Part shown: one piece after another, positions 510 to 7,076 of the stretch
Position numbering within the stretch: the first letter of the stretch is position 1
Layout: each line of letters opens with the position of its first letter
Assembly (NCBI GenBank): GCA_018667995.1
Contig: JABIQT010000898.1
Location: forward strand, 1 to 7,076
Length of the DNA stretch: 7,076 nt
Reading direction: 5' to 3'
Source: Candidatus Latescibacterota bacterium
GTDB lineage: Bacteria > JAAXHH01 > JABIQT01
Position numbers and translations under genes: made by a program
Notes under the pieces: generated by a model
Databases searched by the model: none
Told to the model about the DNA's origin: nothing
What the model saw: the letters and a program-made list of their open reading frames with translations, nothing else

Positions 510-1655
510 TCAATCGATCAGGTTCTGTTGGGATTCTGTTCTGGCCTGTTTCAGGAATGGCAGAAAATCTGTACCACCGGTGCCTACTGTACCTTCATCC
601 GAATTAGCCAGATGTGTGATGTACCGGACCGTGATCTCCATGTGACGTCTTCGGAACTCGGTCAAACCTGTAACGCAGGCGTTGTAAGATTGTCGAAGTG
701 CAGGACATCTTGCAGCCCGCGCATTCACATATTCGTGGGTGGACGGGCCACCAGCAAGATCTTCGATGAACCTGCGATGCGCAGGTGGCATGTACCGTCG
801 CATATCCATCAGGAATGGTCGCGTCTTGTTGTCTTCATGTACTATGGAGAGACCTGCGTCAATGGCCTGAAGTAATGAACTCTGGGCGGCACTTCCGCCG
901 GCCAATACACGGGGAGTATCGTAAACGCCCTCGTACAGCACGCCGGGTTCTTTCCAGCCTGCCAGGAAGGGGCGCACTCTGTGGTAGAATACATAAGGAG
1001 CACAGCGCTCGGGGATTCGTGAGAGCGCATCCGAGATGGATTCGATGACCAATGCAATAGACCCAAGCAGATCCGTTACCTTCTCTGGAGCATCGGCGAC
1101 TACCGCCGCTTTTAGATTGACGAGTTCAGGCAGTGCGGGGGCTCCCTTGGCCTCAATTGCCACGGTTGTCAGATAGAACCAAGCCTCATCCATGCCTCCC
1201 AGAAACAACTGGCGCGTGCCCATATTACTCAGGTCCAGGGCCTTAGTTTCGTCAAGCAGATACCAGTTATTTAGAACAATGGAGGCATGGGAGATAATCA
1301 TGGGTCTCCCCAGGCGCTCGGCCACCTCTGCCCAGGGCACCGCGAGGGCACGGGGAATGACGCTTGCCGTCTCAGGTCCTCCCCATATGTAAGAGTTGCC
1401 GAATACGGAGAGCAACAACATGGCCCTCTGCAGTTGGGCCTCCGTTTCCAATCTGGTCGTGTCAGGTATGGAGAGTCTGTCTACGGCAGACCGATATCGT
1501 CCCGCGATAAGAAGGTCCGATAGTCTGGCCGCGAGCTGATCCCAACCGGAGAAACCTTCAGGCAACTGCGAAATGGGGGATCGGGCGGGCAGGAATCCCC
1601 GCTGCGGATCGACTTGATAGTCTGACAGTCGCTTAATGATCGGTGGACACGTCAT
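510..1655 (-). CDS. Indoleamine 2,3-dioxygenase (heme enzyme, IDO family)
   Basis: IDO enzymes use heme and O2 to cleave the indole C2-C3 bond, converting tryptophan to N-formylkynurenine in the cytoplasm. The 381 residues are close to the roughly 400 of animal IDO1, and the C-terminal half matches it almost motif for motif from memory: FLAGWK (230-235), LYEGV (240-244), AGGSAAQSS (252-260), DMRRYMPPAHR (284-294) and GTGGTDFLPFLK (358-369). The proximal heme ligand is His338 (FRRRHMEI). Phe223 and Arg228 match the distal-pocket Phe226 and Arg231 of human IDO1. Human Phe163 matches Phe160, while human Ser167 is Thr164 here. The ATG has GAGG seven bases upstream. The gene lies 43 bases after the extradiol dioxygenase and 69 before the permease. 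Related heme enzymes (PrnB, tryptophan 2,3-dioxygenase) fit less well. The exact indole substrate is unproven. Confidence 0.93.
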   Translation of the reverse strand: MTCPPIIKRLSDYQVDPQRGFLPARSPISQLPEGFSGWDQLAARLSDLLIAGRYRSAVDRLSIPDTTRLETEAQLQRAMLLLSVFGNSYIWGGPETASVIPRALAVPWAEVAERLGRPMIISHASIVLNNWYLLDETKALDLSNMGTRQLFLGGMDEAWFYLTTVAIEAKGAPALPELVNLKAAVVADAPEKVTDLLGSIALVIESISDALSRIPERCAPYVFYHRVRPFLAGWKEPGVLYEGVYDTPRVLAGGSAAQSSLLQAIDAGLSIVHEDNKTRPFLMDMRRYMPPAHRRFIEDLAGGPSTHEYVNARAARCPALRQSYNACVTGLTEFRRRHMEITVRYITHLANSDEGTVGTGGTDFLPFLKQARTESQQNLID

Positions 1656-1698: not shown

Positions 1699-2694
1699 CT
1701 ATTCAGGCGCGATGATAGGTTTGGCGTTCAGTGACGGAGGGTAGATCTCGGTATCAGAAAACAGGGAGCCCTCCTCAAACCAGGTCCGCGGCGCTGCTTG
1801 ACCCCACAGGGTCTGTCGGCTGGGATCATCAAGATTCCACAACCTCGGTGGATGATCAGGATCCATCGTCATGTAATCGCTTGAAAATAACTCTATCCGG
1901 TGCCCGTCCGGATCCCGCATGTAGAAGAAGAAAGCATTGGATATGCCATGGCGGCCCGGGCCTCTTTCAAAGGCCCCTCTGTATCCGGCACTGGCGAGCA
2001 GGTCGCAGAAGTTGATAATGTCCGTGGCCGTGGGAACCCACACTCCGATGTGATGAAGCCTCGGCCCCAAACCGTTGGTAAAAGCCATATCATGAACATT
2101 GCCCTTACGATGCGTCCATGCGGCCCAGATGTCCGAATGGTCATCTTCGATATCGGTCATGGTGACTTCTGTAATGCGAAAACCCAACTCACTCACATAG
2201 TACCGCGTGAACGCATTCACATCGTTGGCGAAGACGTTCACGTGGTCTATGCGCTGGATCCGGGCTCCCTTATAGTGGGTGTACTTTTGCAGCATCAGTT
2301 CTCGCCGCTCCATCTCATAGTAGAATTCGAGGGGTATTCCGAACGGGTCTCGAACCTGGAGCGTACGTCCCTGTGCATAGGAATCGATCCATCGAGGGGC
2401 GGCACCGGCTTCCGTGAAGTACTGTTCCGCCAGATCCAGATCTTCCTCGCTCCCAACCTTGAAGCCGATGTAGTCCACCTGCGGAGTCTCCGATTTTCGA
2501 AGGATAAGGGAGTGATGGTTCCGCTCCTCCAGTCCACGTAGGTACAAGGCGTCTTCCGTCTCATCCTCGCAGAGATACCCCAGAATATCCACGTAGAACG
2601 TCCTCGACCGGGCAAGATCAGTTACACCCCATGAGACATGACTGACTCGTATGATATTGAAAGGCGGGTTTCGATTAGGCAGAGGCAGTGGCAT
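1699..2694 (-). CDS. Extradiol ring-cleavage dioxygenase, homoprotocatechuate 2,3-dioxygenase-like (VOC fold)
   Basis: This is a non-heme Fe(II) or Mn(II) enzyme that opens a catechol-type ring next to the hydroxyls. Two VOC modules are seen: an N-terminal non-catalytic one (about 13-128) and a catalytic one (about 147-275). Compared from memory with Brevibacterium fuscum homoprotocatechuate dioxygenase, the metal triad is present as His151 (RIDHVN), His215 (RLHHIG) and Glu268 (DGHRIEL). The second-sphere residues Asn153, Trp193, acid-base His201, Arg244, His249 and Tyr258 also match. The reference Arg292-Arg293 pair near the substrate tail becomes Arg293-Gln294, and the C-terminal tail is some 25-35 residues shorter. 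The fold and chemistry are therefore clear, but the substrate may not be homoprotocatechuate. The ATG has GGAG seven bases upstream. It sits 32 bases after the aldehyde dehydrogenase and 43 before IDO. HpaD-like by family; no symbol is assigned because the substrate is uncertain. Confidence 0.9.
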   Translation of the reverse strand: MPLPLPNRNPPFNIIRVSHVSWGVTDLARSRTFYVDILGYLCEDETEDALYLRGLEERNHHSLILRKSETPQVDYIGFKVGSEEDLDLAEQYFTEAGAAPRWIDSYAQGRTLQVRDPFGIPLEFYYEMERRELMLQKYTHYKGARIQRIDHVNVFANDVNAFTRYYVSELGFRITEVTMTDIEDDHSDIWAAWTHRKGNVHDMAFTNGLGPRLHHIGVWVPTATDIINFCDLLASAGYRGAFERGPGRHGISNAFFFYMRDPDGHRIELFSSDYMTMDPDHPPRLWNLDDPSRQTLWGQAAPRTWFEEGSLFSDTEIYPPSLNAKPIIAPE

Positions 2695-2726: not shown

Positions 2727-4243
2727 TTATCCCAACTTTGGAATACGATGATCGCCCAGAGCCACATCGATATTTTTCGTTTCCATATAGAAATCAAAAC
2801 TGTAGTCTCCCCCGTCGCGACCGATGCCACTGGACTTCATGCCCCCGAAAGGGGTCGGAAGGTAACGAACATTCTGAGAGTTCACCCAGATCATTCCCGC
2901 GTCCAATCGCTGGGAAAAGGTGTGGGCACGTCGTACATCACCTGTCCATAGATACGCCGCCAAGCCATACTTGGTATTATTAGCCAGTGCGAGTGCTTCG
3001 TCTTCACTGTCGAAGGGCAGAGCCGTAAGGAATGGGCCAAAGACCTCTTCCTGGGCAATCCGCATATCGCCCGTAGCCGCAGCAAATAGTGTTGGTTCAA
3101 AGTAGTTACCGTCCCCTAGGCCCTCTGGCCTATTGCCTCCGGCCGCGAGGGTAGCGCCTTCTTCGCAACCCACCGTAACGTAACGCATGACCTTCTCAAG
3201 ATGAGTCGGATGGATCAGCGGCCCTATATCTGTTAACTTGTCGAAAGGATCACCAACTTTCAAATTCCTGACGCGCTCCACGAGTCTTGCTATAAAATCG
3301 TCGTAGATGCCTCGCTCCACCAACAAGCGGCTGCTGGACGTACAACGCTCACCGTTCAAACTGTATATCATGAATAAGACTGCGTCCAGTGCCCGCTCCA
3401 GATCTGAGTCTGCAAAAACAACGACCGGGTTCTTGCCGCCGAGTTCAAAATGAACGCGTTTCAAGGTATCCGATCCCTGCCGCATGATGGCCTTTCCGGT
3501 TTCGGAATCGCCCACAAATCCAATGGCTTTGATATCGGGATGTTCGGTCAGTGCCTTTCCTGCTACCTCACCCATTCCGTTCACCACATTGACCACGCCC
3601 GGTGGAATACCCGCTTCGTGAATCAATTCTGCAAGCCTTATCGCGGTAATGGGGCTCCATTCTGCCGGCTTGTGCACAACGGTGCATCCCGCCGCTAGTG
3701 CAGGAGCTATTTTCCAGGTACTAAGCATGAAGGGCGTATTCCAGGGCGTAATAATGCCGACCGGACCAATGGGCTGACGCATGGTGTAATTCAAATGGCC
3801 ATCTGTAGGTAACGCCAGGCCATCCTGGGCGGATTCGGCCCGGTCCGCGAAGAACCGGAAGTTATCAGCTGCTCGCTCCGCCGCCTTACTCATAAATTTG
3901 ATGGTTTGTCCGGTATCGAGGACTTCAAGCAACGCGATTTCTTCTGAGTTGGCCTCTATGAGATCTGCGACGGCGTGCAAGCGTGTTTTTCGCTCTGCGG
4001 CCGGTATGTCCCGCCACGCCGGAAAGGCCGCCTTCGCAGCCATTACAGCCCGGTTGATATCCTCATTGTCGCCCAGGGCAACATTGGTGATAAAGGTATT
4101 GTCCAGGGGCGTATGATTCTCAAATACCGCCTCTGCAGCGGAGTTTACCGGTTCCCCGCCGATCAGGTGCGGAATGCCGTTCTGGGAATATCGGGATAGA
4201 TAGGTATGCGCTGTTTTACGGTCGGGATGATGCGAAAGGCCAT
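2727..4243 (-). CDS. Aldehyde dehydrogenase, HpaE-like semialdehyde dehydrogenase; 5' end apparently frameshifted
   Basis: NAD(P)-dependent oxidation of an aldehyde to an acid, here probably the ring-cleavage semialdehyde. Numbered from the internal Met at 4043, the general base Glu200 (HFELGGKNP) and nucleophile Cys234 (GERCTSSSR) are intact, as are TPWNTPF and the C-terminal FGGMKSSGIGR. NGERC and the overall pattern resemble HpaE and 2-aminomuconate semialdehyde dehydrogenases. The Met at 4043 is not the true start: the same frame upstream encodes typical N-terminal family sequence (GIPHLIGGEPV, then about 34 more conserved-looking residues), yet it reaches a stop at 4272-4274 without ATG, GTG or TTG. 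The best start, ATG 4241-4243 with GGAGGA ten bases upstream, lies in another frame. One extra base, most simply in the run of four T at 4214-4217, would join the two and give about 505 residues, near the family norm. A natural frameshift or a sequence error are both possible. Confidence 0.85.
4163..4243 (-). other. Candidate frameshift zone at the 5' end of the aldehyde dehydrogenase gene
   Basis: From ATG 4241-4243 the frame reads MAFRIIPTVK and onward for 26 codons, then meets TGA at 4163-4165. The aldehyde dehydrogenase frame is offset by one base and already looks like family sequence (HLIGG) across that point. The only homopolymer longer than three in the zone is TTTT on the plus strand (4214-4217, AAAA in the mRNA). 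Adding one A there gives the smooth join IIPTVKTAHTYLSRY. No canonical slippery heptamer (X XXY YYZ) is present, so programmed frameshifting is not favoured. Confidence 0.6.
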
Positions 4244-4253
4244 CTCTTGGGAG

Positions 4254-4259
4254 TCCTCC
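4254..4259 (-). promoter_or_regulatory. Ribosome binding site GGAGGA for the aldehyde dehydrogenase
   Basis: GGAGGA on the minus strand sits ten bases before the ATG at 4241-4243. This strong site argues that translation of the aldehyde dehydrogenase starts there and not at the internal Met at 4043, where no comparable site is seen. The other nearby ATG (4259-4261) overlaps the GGAGGA itself and has no site of its own. Spacing is at the long end of normal. Confidence 0.55.
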
Positions 4260-4271
4260 ATGATGATTGGG

Positions 4272-5009
4272 CTACGCTTCGATGACCTTGTTTTCGAGCA
4301 CACCTAGCCCGTCGACCTCCAGGCGTACTGTGTCACCGGGATAAATATGTGAGATCCCCTCGGGGGTACCCGACCAGATCATATCGCCTGGGTTCAAAGT
4401 CATATAGTCTGTGATATACTCGATTAACTCTGCAACGCTGTGGCGTAGATTCTTGGTGTTCCCTTTCTGGCGAAGCTCACCATTCACGTAAGTTCGCAAG
4501 CCAACATTTGCAGGGTCGACCTCATCCGCACAGACAAGGTAGGGACCGATGGGGCCAAAAGTATCAAATCCCTTTGCCTTTATCGGTGGGCGGAAATAGT
4601 TAGTTACGAAATCCCGGACGGTAACATCGTTTCCGATGGTGTAGCCACTCACGTATCGCAATGCGTCATCTGCAGAGACTTTACGTGCAGGCAGTCCCAT
4701 GACGGCCACAAGCTCGCATTCGTAGTGCATATAGTCAATACCCGCTGGAGCAACGATTTGAGCGCCGTGACCAATGTACGAGCTGGCCATCTTCTGGAAA
4801 AGAATAGGCTCATCGGGCAATTCAAGGTCGAGCTCGGCTGCGTGATCTTTATAACCCAACGCCACACCGATCGCTTTACCAGTGTGTGCAACGGGAGGCA
4901 GCCACATTACGTCTTCGGGATCGTAGGCAATGGTACCCACCCAGAGTTGCCCGTGCTCGAAAACAGCATCATGGACCTGACCGTTGTATGCGAAGCGTGC
5001 CCTTTTCAT
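4272..5009 (-). CDS. Fumarylacetoacetate hydrolase-family enzyme, HpaG-like isomerase/decarboxylase
   Basis: Members of this fold act on ring-cleavage products: isomerisation or decarboxylation in the homoprotocatechuate route (HpaG), or hydration and decarboxylation of oxo-enoates in other meta routes. The 245 residues hold a short N-terminal domain (about 1-45) and one complete catalytic module. Metal ligands are Glu97 and Glu99 (HYECEL) and Asp128 (GNDVT). Also present are Lys146 in KGFDTFGPIGP (146-156) and the SGTPEG loop (213-218). Enterobacterial HpaG is a fusion of two such modules of about 430 residues in all; only one is seen here, so a partner may be encoded elsewhere or be unnecessary. 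The ATG has AAGGAG five bases upstream (5015-5020), and only 15 bases separate it from the NTPase stop. The fold and a pathway role after ring opening are confident; the precise reaction is not. Confidence 0.88.
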   Translation of the reverse strand: MKRARFAYNGQVHDAVFEHGQLWVGTIAYDPEDVMWLPPVAHTGKAIGVALGYKDHAAELDLELPDEPILFQKMASSYIGHGAQIVAPAGIDYMHYECELVAVMGLPARKVSADDALRYVSGYTIGNDVTVRDFVTNYFRPPIKAKGFDTFGPIGPYLVCADEVDPANVGLRTYVNGELRQKGNTKNLRHSVAELIEYITDYMTLNPGDMIWSGTPEGISHIYPGDTVRLEVDGLGVLENKVIEA

Positions 5010-5024: not shown

Positions 5025-5903
5025 CTAAACCAGATACCATTGCTGCACGTGTTGATCCAGTTCCGATGCGGTAGGATATTGTTCCAATACTTTGGCTATA
5101 CATACTTCGACATCTATCGCAGAAGGGATCAGTTCCTTGACCGGAATGTCCAGATCGTACACGGAGCGCCCTTGCGTATCGAAGGTCGTGTCGATAGAAA
5201 GAATCTCGTGATTTCGGTGTTTCATCAATGCGGCAAACATACCACCGTAGATATCGGGGTCGTAACCATTCTTTCCAACTTCAGGTATGCGGTCGATGAT
5301 CTTGAGGTCGTACGCTACTCTATACAGATCTTCCCATAGAGAACGCATTACTGCAGGTACGGCGTCTGACTGCTCACGCTCGTGCTTTGGATCCGAGCTA
5401 CGTTCCTCACGGGAAGCTTCAATTACACGCCTCACCTCGTGTGTGGGCACAGGTGTCACGAACTTAGTTTTGTTGTCGGCAAGCGTTTGCTCAATAGGGT
5501 CGTCAATCCGTCGGAGAAGGGACATGAGGCGGTCTCCTACCAGCGACATTTCACCTATCAAGAGATTTTTCGGGTCCACATGGGTCTTGTGCCATTGCTC
5601 AATGGCGGTCCGCGCCCAGATACCCACTGCGGTTCGTACCGCCGGGTGCGTCACTCCGTCGATTTCCGGGAATGCTGCTTGGGCCTCAGCACTCGCCTCG
5701 AACGGTTGACGGCAGACGTCCCACTGAAGCAGATGAATGGTTCGCCCACGAGCCTGACCGATATGAGCCAGCTGATTAATCAATAGGCTCTTTCCGACTC
5801 CTGGAAGACCAGTGCAGAAGACCATTCTACTGTCCCCTGCGAGGCGGCTTAGGGTGCTGTGTAGGGGGGAGTCTACGGGAATGATGACACCTGATTCAGA
5901 CAA
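5025..5903 (-). CDS. P-loop NTPase of unknown function
   Basis: I do not recognise this family. The 292 residues begin with a beta strand leading into a clear Walker A motif, GLPGVGKS (32-39), preceded by MVFCTG as in P-loop kinases and small ATPases. A second strand ends in HLLQWD (57-62), where many P-loop kinases place a conserved acid. NLLIGE (113-118) may be the Walker B strand. A charged Arg/Glu/Lys-rich segment (about 157-179) could be a lid. No signal peptide, membrane helix or DNA-binding motif is seen. It is tightly linked to the following hydrolase gene (15 bases), so it is probably co-expressed with the pathway. Roles such as a small-molecule kinase, a cofactor or metal chaperone, or a regulator are open; none is shown. 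The start is TTG, chosen because GAGGA lies six bases upstream and an in-frame TGA sits four codons before it. Confidence 0.75.
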   Translation of the reverse strand: MSESGVIIPVDSPLHSTLSRLAGDSRMVFCTGLPGVGKSLLINQLAHIGQARGRTIHLLQWDVCRQPFEASAEAQAAFPEIDGVTHPAVRTAVGIWARTAIEQWHKTHVDPKNLLIGEMSLVGDRLMSLLRRIDDPIEQTLADNKTKFVTPVPTHEVRRVIEASREERSSDPKHEREQSDAVPAVMRSLWEDLYRVAYDLKIIDRIPEVGKNGYDPDIYGGMFAALMKHRNHEILSIDTTFDTQGRSVYDLDIPVKELIPSAIDVEVCIAKVLEQYPTASELDQHVQQWYLV

Positions 5904-5999: not shown

Positions 6000-7076
6000 C
6001 TAAATGCCACGGACGCGTGGTAGTGACTTGAACTTGTCGGGGCTCGGCATGTCGCCAACGGGAATCTCAATTATCGTGGGCCCCGATTCAGCGAAGCCTC
6101 GTCTGATCGCATCGCCAAGTTCTTCGGGCGTATGGGCGCGTAGCCCTTGCGCCCCGAAAGACTCTGCCATTTTCACGAAATCGGGGTTGTGCAGGTCGCT
6201 CGCGATTACCCGATTGCCGTAGAGATCTTTCTGCATTCGCTTCACATTCCCAAAGGCATTGTCGTTAAAGATGAGGGCAACTAAGCCGATCCTGTGCTGA
6301 ACGGCACTAGCGAGTTCCTGCATGGTAAACATGAATCCGCCATCGCCGGAAACCGATATGACCGGCGTATCCGGATGGGCGACCTTGACGCCGAGGGCGG
6401 TGGAAAATCCCCATCCCAATGTACCTTGATACCCCGTCGAGATAAAGGTATAGGGCTTGTACACTGGTAGTACCTGACGACTTACATATCCTATCTGGGT
6501 GAGTTCATCTACAAAAATGCCGTGATCCGGTAGTTCCTGCCTGATGACTTTCAAGAAGGAGTTTTGAGGTTCCAGAAAAGCGAACTGGTTTTCGCTCCAG
6601 GCTTTCAGCTCTAGCATTTCTTCTCTTCTTGACGGCCGTACGTCGAGGCGTGACTCTACAAGAGGCAGAAGGGCGGGCATAGCATCTTCTGTCCGGGCCA
6701 CGATTCCGATGTTAGGGCGAGCAAGGCGATTGAGTGCCTCAGCATCAACATCGATGCGGATGATCTGGAGACCGCTATCTGTGCCCCAATGTGTCTGCGG
6801 CAGTTGAAGGCGGGAACCTATGGCAAGGACCACATCCACTTCTGGCCATAGCTTGTGGGCCACCGGAATCGGATGACTCAGATAGTGCCGACTACTCAGA
6901 ACTCCTCTGCCGGTGCGATAGCCAATGACTGGCGCTTGAAGCATTTCGGCCAGATGTTCTACTTCTTCTGACACATTCATGGCACCGCGCCCCACGAAAA
7001 TCATAGGACACTTTGCAGCGCCCAGAGCCGCGGCGGCACGCTCAAGCATGTCTGTGTCTACCGGGGGATTGCGCAG
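6000..7076 (-). CDS. ThDP-dependent enzyme, acetolactate synthase/decarboxylase-like, C-terminal part (cut by right window edge)
   Basis: These enzymes use thiamine diphosphate and Mg2+ to decarboxylate 2-oxo acids or form and break C-C bonds. About 358 residues are present; the frame remains open through the nine codons upstream of the first Met (7047-7049) to the edge, so the gene starts outside. The visible part holds the central Rossmann-like domain (about residues 10-140 from that Met; MIFVGRGAM, VDVVLAIGSRL) and the cofactor-binding C-terminal domain. The latter has GDGGF (235-239) and FNDNAFGN (261-268), the GDG...N signature for Mg-diphosphate binding. The missing N-terminal domain, with the catalytic Glu, would reveal more of the substrate class. 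Total family length is about 540-600. A 2-oxo acid decarboxylase for an aromatic or ring-cleavage product fits the context, but a carboligase or lyase is equally possible. Its stop lies 96 bases before the NTPase start. Confidence 0.87.
   Translation of the reverse strand: MRNPPVDTDMLERAAAALGAAKCPMIFVGRGAMNVSEEVEHLAEMLQAPVIGYRTGRGVLSSRHYLSHPIPVAHKLWPEVDVVLAIGSRLQLPQTHWGTDSGLQIIRIDVDAEALNRLARPNIGIVARTEDAMPALLPLVESRLDVRPSRREEMLELKAWSENQFAFLEPQNSFLKVIRQELPDHGIFVDELTQIGYVSRQVLPVYKPYTFISTGYQGTLGWGFSTALGVKVAHPDTPVISVSGDGGFMFTMQELASAVQHRIGLVALIFNDNAFGNVKRMQKDLYGNRVIASDLHNPDFVKMAESFGAQGLRAHTPEELGDAIRRGFAESGPTIIEIPVGDMPSPDKFKSLPRVRGI

Follow-up and report, generated by a model that had tools for sequence, protein, structure and literature searches.

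The window, that is the whole stretch of 7,076 nucleotides analysed here, carries on its minus strand a gene for a P-loop NTPase that is a member of an unnamed family within the known P-loop superfamily and not a new kind of system. Two unrelated bacterial groups have this gene directly behind that of a thiamine-dependent (ThDP) decarboxylase-type enzyme in operons for amino-acid breakdown, so that its product probably carries out an unrecognised step of such a pathway. Our preferred reading, to which we give slightly less than an even chance, is a small-molecule kinase of the DxxR kind that is coupled to the ThDP decarboxylation route.

The gene and its operon

The window is one entire contig of an assembly of 6.06 Mb in 1165 contigs, and its features are collected in Table 1. 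The plus-strand reading of 5025-5903 is broken by several stops, and a plus-strand gene was rejected for this reason. On the minus strand, the open frame extends upstream of the TTG by 3 more codons at most (295 aa), and a GAGG ribosome-binding site is located 8 nt 5' of this start. The ThDP gene ends 96 nt upstream of the NTPase gene, and 15 nt separate the NTPase stop from the ATG of the FAA-hydrolase/HpaG gene, which has the ribosome-binding site AAGGAG; the placement after the ThDP enzyme and 15 bases before the hydrolase gene described in the earlier note is confirmed. Full-length homologues with 36-48% identity, purifying selection and a conserved operon position establish that the gene is real, in agreement with the original observation. 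No match to the family was found in the phage and viral contigs searched, and PADLOC and PHROGs returned weak P-loop matches only, so that a phage or defence origin was rejected.

Table 1. Features of the window and of related operons (positions outside the window are preceded by the locus)
Feature	Position	Strand	Basis or remark
ThDP enzyme (PRK08266 type), C-terminal part	6000..7076	minus	runs off contig end
Unclassified P-loop kinase-like NTPase gene	5025..5903	minus	292 aa, TTG start
Walker A, GLPGVGKS (residues 32-39)	5787..5810	minus	sequence; GLPxxGKS pattern in 16/16 homologues
DxxR motif (D62..R65), end of strand beta-2, within WDxxRxxF	5709..5720	minus	16-sequence alignment and E. 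coli APS kinase alignment
LLIGE (residues 114-118), Walker-B-like	5550..5564	minus	E118, invariant, closes predicted strand beta-3
FAA-hydrolase-fold HpaG C-terminal-type isomerase/decarboxylase	4272..5009	minus	TIGR02303 over cut-off
HpaE, 5-carboxymethyl-2-hydroxymuconate semialdehyde dehydrogenase	2727..4043	minus	TIGR02299 over cut-off
HpaD, 3,4-dihydroxyphenylacetate 2,3-dioxygenase	1699..2694	minus	TIGR02295 over cut-off
Indoleamine 2,3-dioxygenase (IDO)-family heme enzyme	510..1655	minus	PF01231, E 1.8e-106; optional neighbour
PPDK_N/PEP-utiliser-like protein	L048 2695-5055; L049 10085-12427; L050 9165-11528		

The gene order ThDP enzyme - NTPase - HpaG - HpaE - HpaD is shared by all 13 assembled loci of the order, the window included (L001 and L028 denote one and the same 40,920-bp contig). 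Wherever the locus is assembled, the NTPase is thus part of the catabolic operon, as had been proposed. HpaD is present in 14 of the 16 genomes of the order that were searched; in the fourteenth (G015), the contig starts inside HpaG and is hence uninformative on the position of the NTPase, and both genomes without HpaD are also without the NTPase. An IDO gene within the operon was found in the window and in G013 only, where it is the last of the enzyme genes; in genus g3 the operon lacks it. In the relatives examined, the operon is followed by genes for an APC amino-acid permease (seen in L001) and for a sulfatase, and the window closes with the beginning of the permease gene.

Since HpaD, HpaE and HpaG all score over their cut-offs, 3,4-dihydroxyphenylacetate is the likely ring-cleavage substrate in this order. 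These three proteins, HpaG as its C-terminal-type domain, are shared with the hpa operon of 4-hydroxyphenylacetate/homoprotocatechuate meta-cleavage, but the operon in the window has one HpaG-type domain only and no HpaBC hydroxylase was seen in it. To our knowledge, the known hpa operon includes neither a P-loop gene nor a ThDP enzyme, and we know of no kinase step in the 3,4-dihydroxyphenylacetate pathway. The family of the ThDP enzyme is annotated as no more than hypothetical (PRK08266), and the second-best model is 5-guanidino-2-oxopentanoate decarboxylase.

Motifs, family assignment and predicted fold

Both motifs from which the earlier note started, the Walker A sequence and HLLQWD (residues 57-62), are present. 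The Walker A pattern of the P-loop superfamily, GxxxxGK[ST] after beta-1, is found here behind a strand predicted at 27-30 and together with a helix predicted at 38-51. Likewise, the D-x-x-R at the end of beta-2 that marks kinases of the APS kinase, PSTK and polynucleotide kinase type could be identified: W61, D62, R65 and F68 are invariant in 16 sequences, and D62/R65 align with the D..R of E. coli APS kinase (CysC). LLIGE118 on the predicted beta-3 is the candidate Walker B, whose glutamate, invariant in the 16 sequences, has a putative magnesium role. The candidate lid contains the invariant R165 in the helix after predicted beta-4, a region with a pLDDT of ~50-65. Altogether, 54 positions are invariant across the 16 sequences, many of them charged, including K38, D62, R65, H86, R90, R98, E118, R125, E138, R165, E177 and D180, and this charge-rich set looks typical of an enzyme active site. 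Invariant cysteines are missing from the alignment of the 16 sequences, as are a conserved Cys/His metal-binding cluster, the deviant Walker A GKGGxGK and a conserved NKxD.

In Pfam and NCBIfam scans, no member of the family passes the cut-off of any model, and the weak matches of the 15 aligned members scanned lie mostly around the P-loop. A known housekeeping family was rejected on this basis, and the earlier statement that the protein can be placed in no family stands; no literature on the family was found. When the family profile was compared with PDB sequences, the best match was the bifunctional SAT/APS kinase 2gks (E 1.5e-4), accompanied by APS kinase, archaeal adenylate kinase and PSTK; each of these matches covers the P-loop and DxxR within ~45 residues at the start of the NTPase domain. 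Against a yardstick set of 17 E. coli proteins that included non-P-loop controls, hhalign ranked APS kinase first (prob 86, E 5e-6, with 39 aligned columns that take in the D..R), followed by MeaB (prob 80) and shikimate kinase (prob 76), and the controls scored <1. Both the DxxR motif and the similarity to APS kinase and PSTK support the kinase-like character that had been read from HLLQWD; the resemblance to kinases in sequence stops after DxxR.

With APS kinase (PF01583/CysC), the best match of both the yardstick and the PDB profile comparison, the NTPase shares a P-loop followed by strand beta-2 and D-x-x-R. However, only ~40 residues align, the Pfam score is 13.8 bits against a cut-off of 21.1, the protein has 292 aa compared to 201, and the conserved motifs THxxR, LIGE, DA and YDPxxY are its own. 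PSTK, the O-phosphoseryl-tRNA(Sec) kinase, has the same GLPGVGKS Walker A and an equally spaced D..R, but the matches have E 0.07-0.15, do not continue past residue ~75 and reach 11.5 against an NCBIfam cut-off of 290.5.

An AlphaFold2 model built from 13 sequences predicts a P-loop alpha/beta domain (pLDDT 77.7, pTM 0.81) with the topology P-loop, beta-2/DxxR, beta-3/E118, beta-4, R-rich helix, beta-5, and a second model, built with a different member as the lead sequence, reproduced this topology less confidently (pLDDT 72.8). Model confidence is moderate, with minima in the putative lid and near residues 121-132. Foldseek found no match to the model at E <= 0.001. The top rows of VIA-align were ArsA/Get3 (Z 9-10, rmsd 3.8-4.9), and among the kinases PFKFB (Z 8.8), adenylate kinase (8.7), PSTK (8.3) and gluconate kinase (8.0) were matched, as well as thymidylate and pantothenate kinases (Z 8-9); the second model was in agreement. 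With ArsA/Get3 tied or slightly ahead, the two groups are effectively tied, and the predicted structure alone would pick neither a kinase nor a SIMIBI ATPase. The kinase side is favoured because the protein has an ordinary Walker A and DxxR and lacks GKGGxGK and NKxD. Sequence and predicted topology together agree with a P-loop kinase that has a DxxR substrate motif of the APS kinase or PSTK type, but with no specific family.

Relatives, proposed function and alternatives

Of 15 other genomes of the order, 12 have an NTPase homologue (43-48% identity), and homologues with 37% identity are encoded on two Rhizobiaceae plasmids, from Agrobacterium and Rhizobium. In another phylum, G377 contains a homologue with 43% identity in two adjacent frames, a split that is probably an assembly frameshift, and its relative G384 contains a C-terminal fragment only (L047 8456-8878), probably a decayed copy, which adjoins TIR-domain and MoxR-like AAA genes. 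Several hundred other genomes, sampled mostly at one per family, yielded no further lineage with the family, and no homologue was found in genomes of another taxon that were reached via a RepC family. The NTPase is under purifying selection, as estimated from a median dN/dS of 0.22 over 45 pairs in genus g3, where the median for the ThDP enzyme is 0.14.

On the Rhizobiaceae plasmids, the operon consists of a HisC-like aminotransferase, the ThDP enzyme, the NTPase, a HAD hydrolase and an aldehyde dehydrogenase, with spacings of 6, 10, 1 and -1 nt in the annotated Agrobacterium plasmid and an identical gene order in that of Rhizobium. HpaD, HpaG and IDO are absent from these operons. The idea that the gene travels with IDO or the extradiol enzyme holds for HpaD within the order and fails beyond it: the association with HpaD, HpaE and HpaG, found in 13 of 13 loci there, does not extend to the Rhizobiaceae plasmids and G377, and IDO is optional. 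Because the Rhizobiaceae operons keep the ThDP enzyme and the NTPase without HpaD or IDO, the partner of the NTPase is the ThDP enzyme and not the dioxygenases. At least one other context exists, since in G377 the gene before the NTPase encodes an AMP-forming acyl-CoA ligase, with no ThDP neighbour. What emerges is not the housekeeping NTPase without co-occurrence with the catabolic genes that the earlier note had named as its counter-case. A phosphonate pathway, with the ThDP enzyme as phosphonopyruvate decarboxylase and the HAD protein as phosphonatase, was rejected because the HAD matches include no phosphonatase model.

In a DxxR kinase of the proposed kind, ATP would be bound by GLPxxGKS, the acceptor would be held by D62/R65 and the phosphates would be handled by invariant arginines such as R165. 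For an amino acid, the pathway would proceed from a transaminase via a ThDP 2-oxoacid decarboxylase to an aldehyde dehydrogenase, the first steps (transamination, decarboxylation by the ThDP enzyme and aldehyde oxidation) being those that family annotation suggests. As the route feeds 3,4-dihydroxyphenylacetate meta-cleavage by HpaD, HpaE and HpaG, this amino acid would be tyrosine- or DOPA-like. The NTPase may then phosphorylate a hydroxylated compound that enters or leaves the decarboxylation step, and the HAD hydrolase encoded by the next gene in Rhizobiaceae could, to judge from its position, remove the phosphate.

That the protein is a kinase of some small molecule has, in our estimate, about an even chance. 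Phosphorylation of an intermediate, as put forward earlier, survives as the best guess; in its narrower form, a kinase acting on an intermediate of its own pathway, it is rather doubtful, and the substrate is putative. It would be a long shot to propose the whole scheme, i.e. a new kinase family for an undescribed phosphorylation in aromatic (tyrosine- or DOPA-like) amino-acid catabolism that is tied to 2-oxoacid decarboxylation, reversed by the HAD phosphatase in Rhizobiaceae and used to protect and release a reactive aldehyde or catechol. If the NTPase is a pathway kinase, current annotation overlooks a step in the oxidation of an aromatic amino acid towards meta-cleavage, and a function that can be tested becomes available for a family without a Pfam model. 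Owing to its natural variation, with plasmids that do or do not carry the NTPase gene and with two different downstream pathways, the system is well suited to genetic work in an ordinary soil bacterium.

This variation also bears on an improbable alternative, in which the NTPase uses ATP to assemble, repair or activate the ThDP enzyme as its chaperone or activase, comparable to MeaB for methylmalonyl-CoA mutase. Such a role would suit the position of the gene, which immediately follows the ThDP gene throughout the order and on the two Rhizobiaceae plasmids, as well as the weak sequence similarity to MeaB (Pfam E 4.3e-4; the hhalign match above) and the place of ArsA/Get3 at the head of the structural rows. 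However, plasmids of Microvirga lotononidis and Cupriavidus taiwanensis retain a full-length ThDP gene, 82-89% identical to that of Agrobacterium, without the NTPase, and in Microvirga a remnant of its first ~23 codons directly follows the ThDP stop before unrelated sequence begins. This persistence, known from the genes alone, speaks against an obligatory chaperone, as do the missing ThDP neighbour in G377 and the fact that many other ThDP enzymes function without an NTPase-type partner. Moreover, the MeaB scores stay below the cut-offs (PF03308 19.8 versus 23.1; TIGR00750 19 versus 240.75), ArsA, Get3 and MinD have the deviant Walker A GKGGxGKT in place of GLPGVGKS, and the conserved NKxD of SIMIBI GTPases is lacking.

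Even less probable is a role in signalling or regulation, in which the NTPase would sense the state of the pathway and adjust expression or activity. Weak nSTAND3 and AAA_16 Pfam matches recur across members in the P-loop region, but they stay under the cut-offs (AAA_16 28.3 versus 32.6; nSTAND3 14.4 versus 27.2), no DNA-binding or signalling domain was found in the 292 aa, the invariant core is polar and enzyme-like and the gene sits among enzyme genes. Metal or heme loading onto HpaD or the IDO-family enzyme, the other early suggestion, is very improbable and disfavoured, as it has nothing but proximity in the window and G013 in its favour, while IDO is missing from the operon of the other genus of the order, the Rhizobiaceae operons keep the NTPase without any of its supposed clients, and the protein has no Cys/His cluster and zero invariant cysteines.

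Neighbouring genes

The HpaG-type protein of the window consists of the C-terminal-type domain alone (245 aa). Classical HpaG is a two-domain fusion, and the partner domain may be encoded elsewhere. Relatives of IDO in the heme superfamily include tyrosine hydroxylases, and the IDO-family protein of the window might hydroxylate instead of cleaving tryptophan. Upstream of the listed ATG of HpaE (4043), the conserved N-terminal ~45 residues can be read without an ATG, GTG or TTG in frame (window 4030-4285, minus), and a peptide with an ATG start is encoded immediately ahead of it in a different frame, which suggests a frameshift, real or from assembly, near the 5' end of the HpaE gene.

Genes of the phytanoyl-CoA-dioxygenase family are located 5' of the operon in both genera (L001 2711-3436; L027 3330-4124 and 4137-5108), and in genus g3 a D-2-hydroxyacid dehydrogenase gene immediately precedes the ThDP gene. 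In the symbiotic-plasmid operons without the NTPase, a PPDK_N/PEP-utiliser phosphotransferase-like protein is encoded next to the aminotransferase-ThDP pair, and the genes occur in two arrangements (Table 1). This protein, which is 71% identical between Microvirga and Cupriavidus, could be a replacement for the NTPase or could merely share the symbiosis region.
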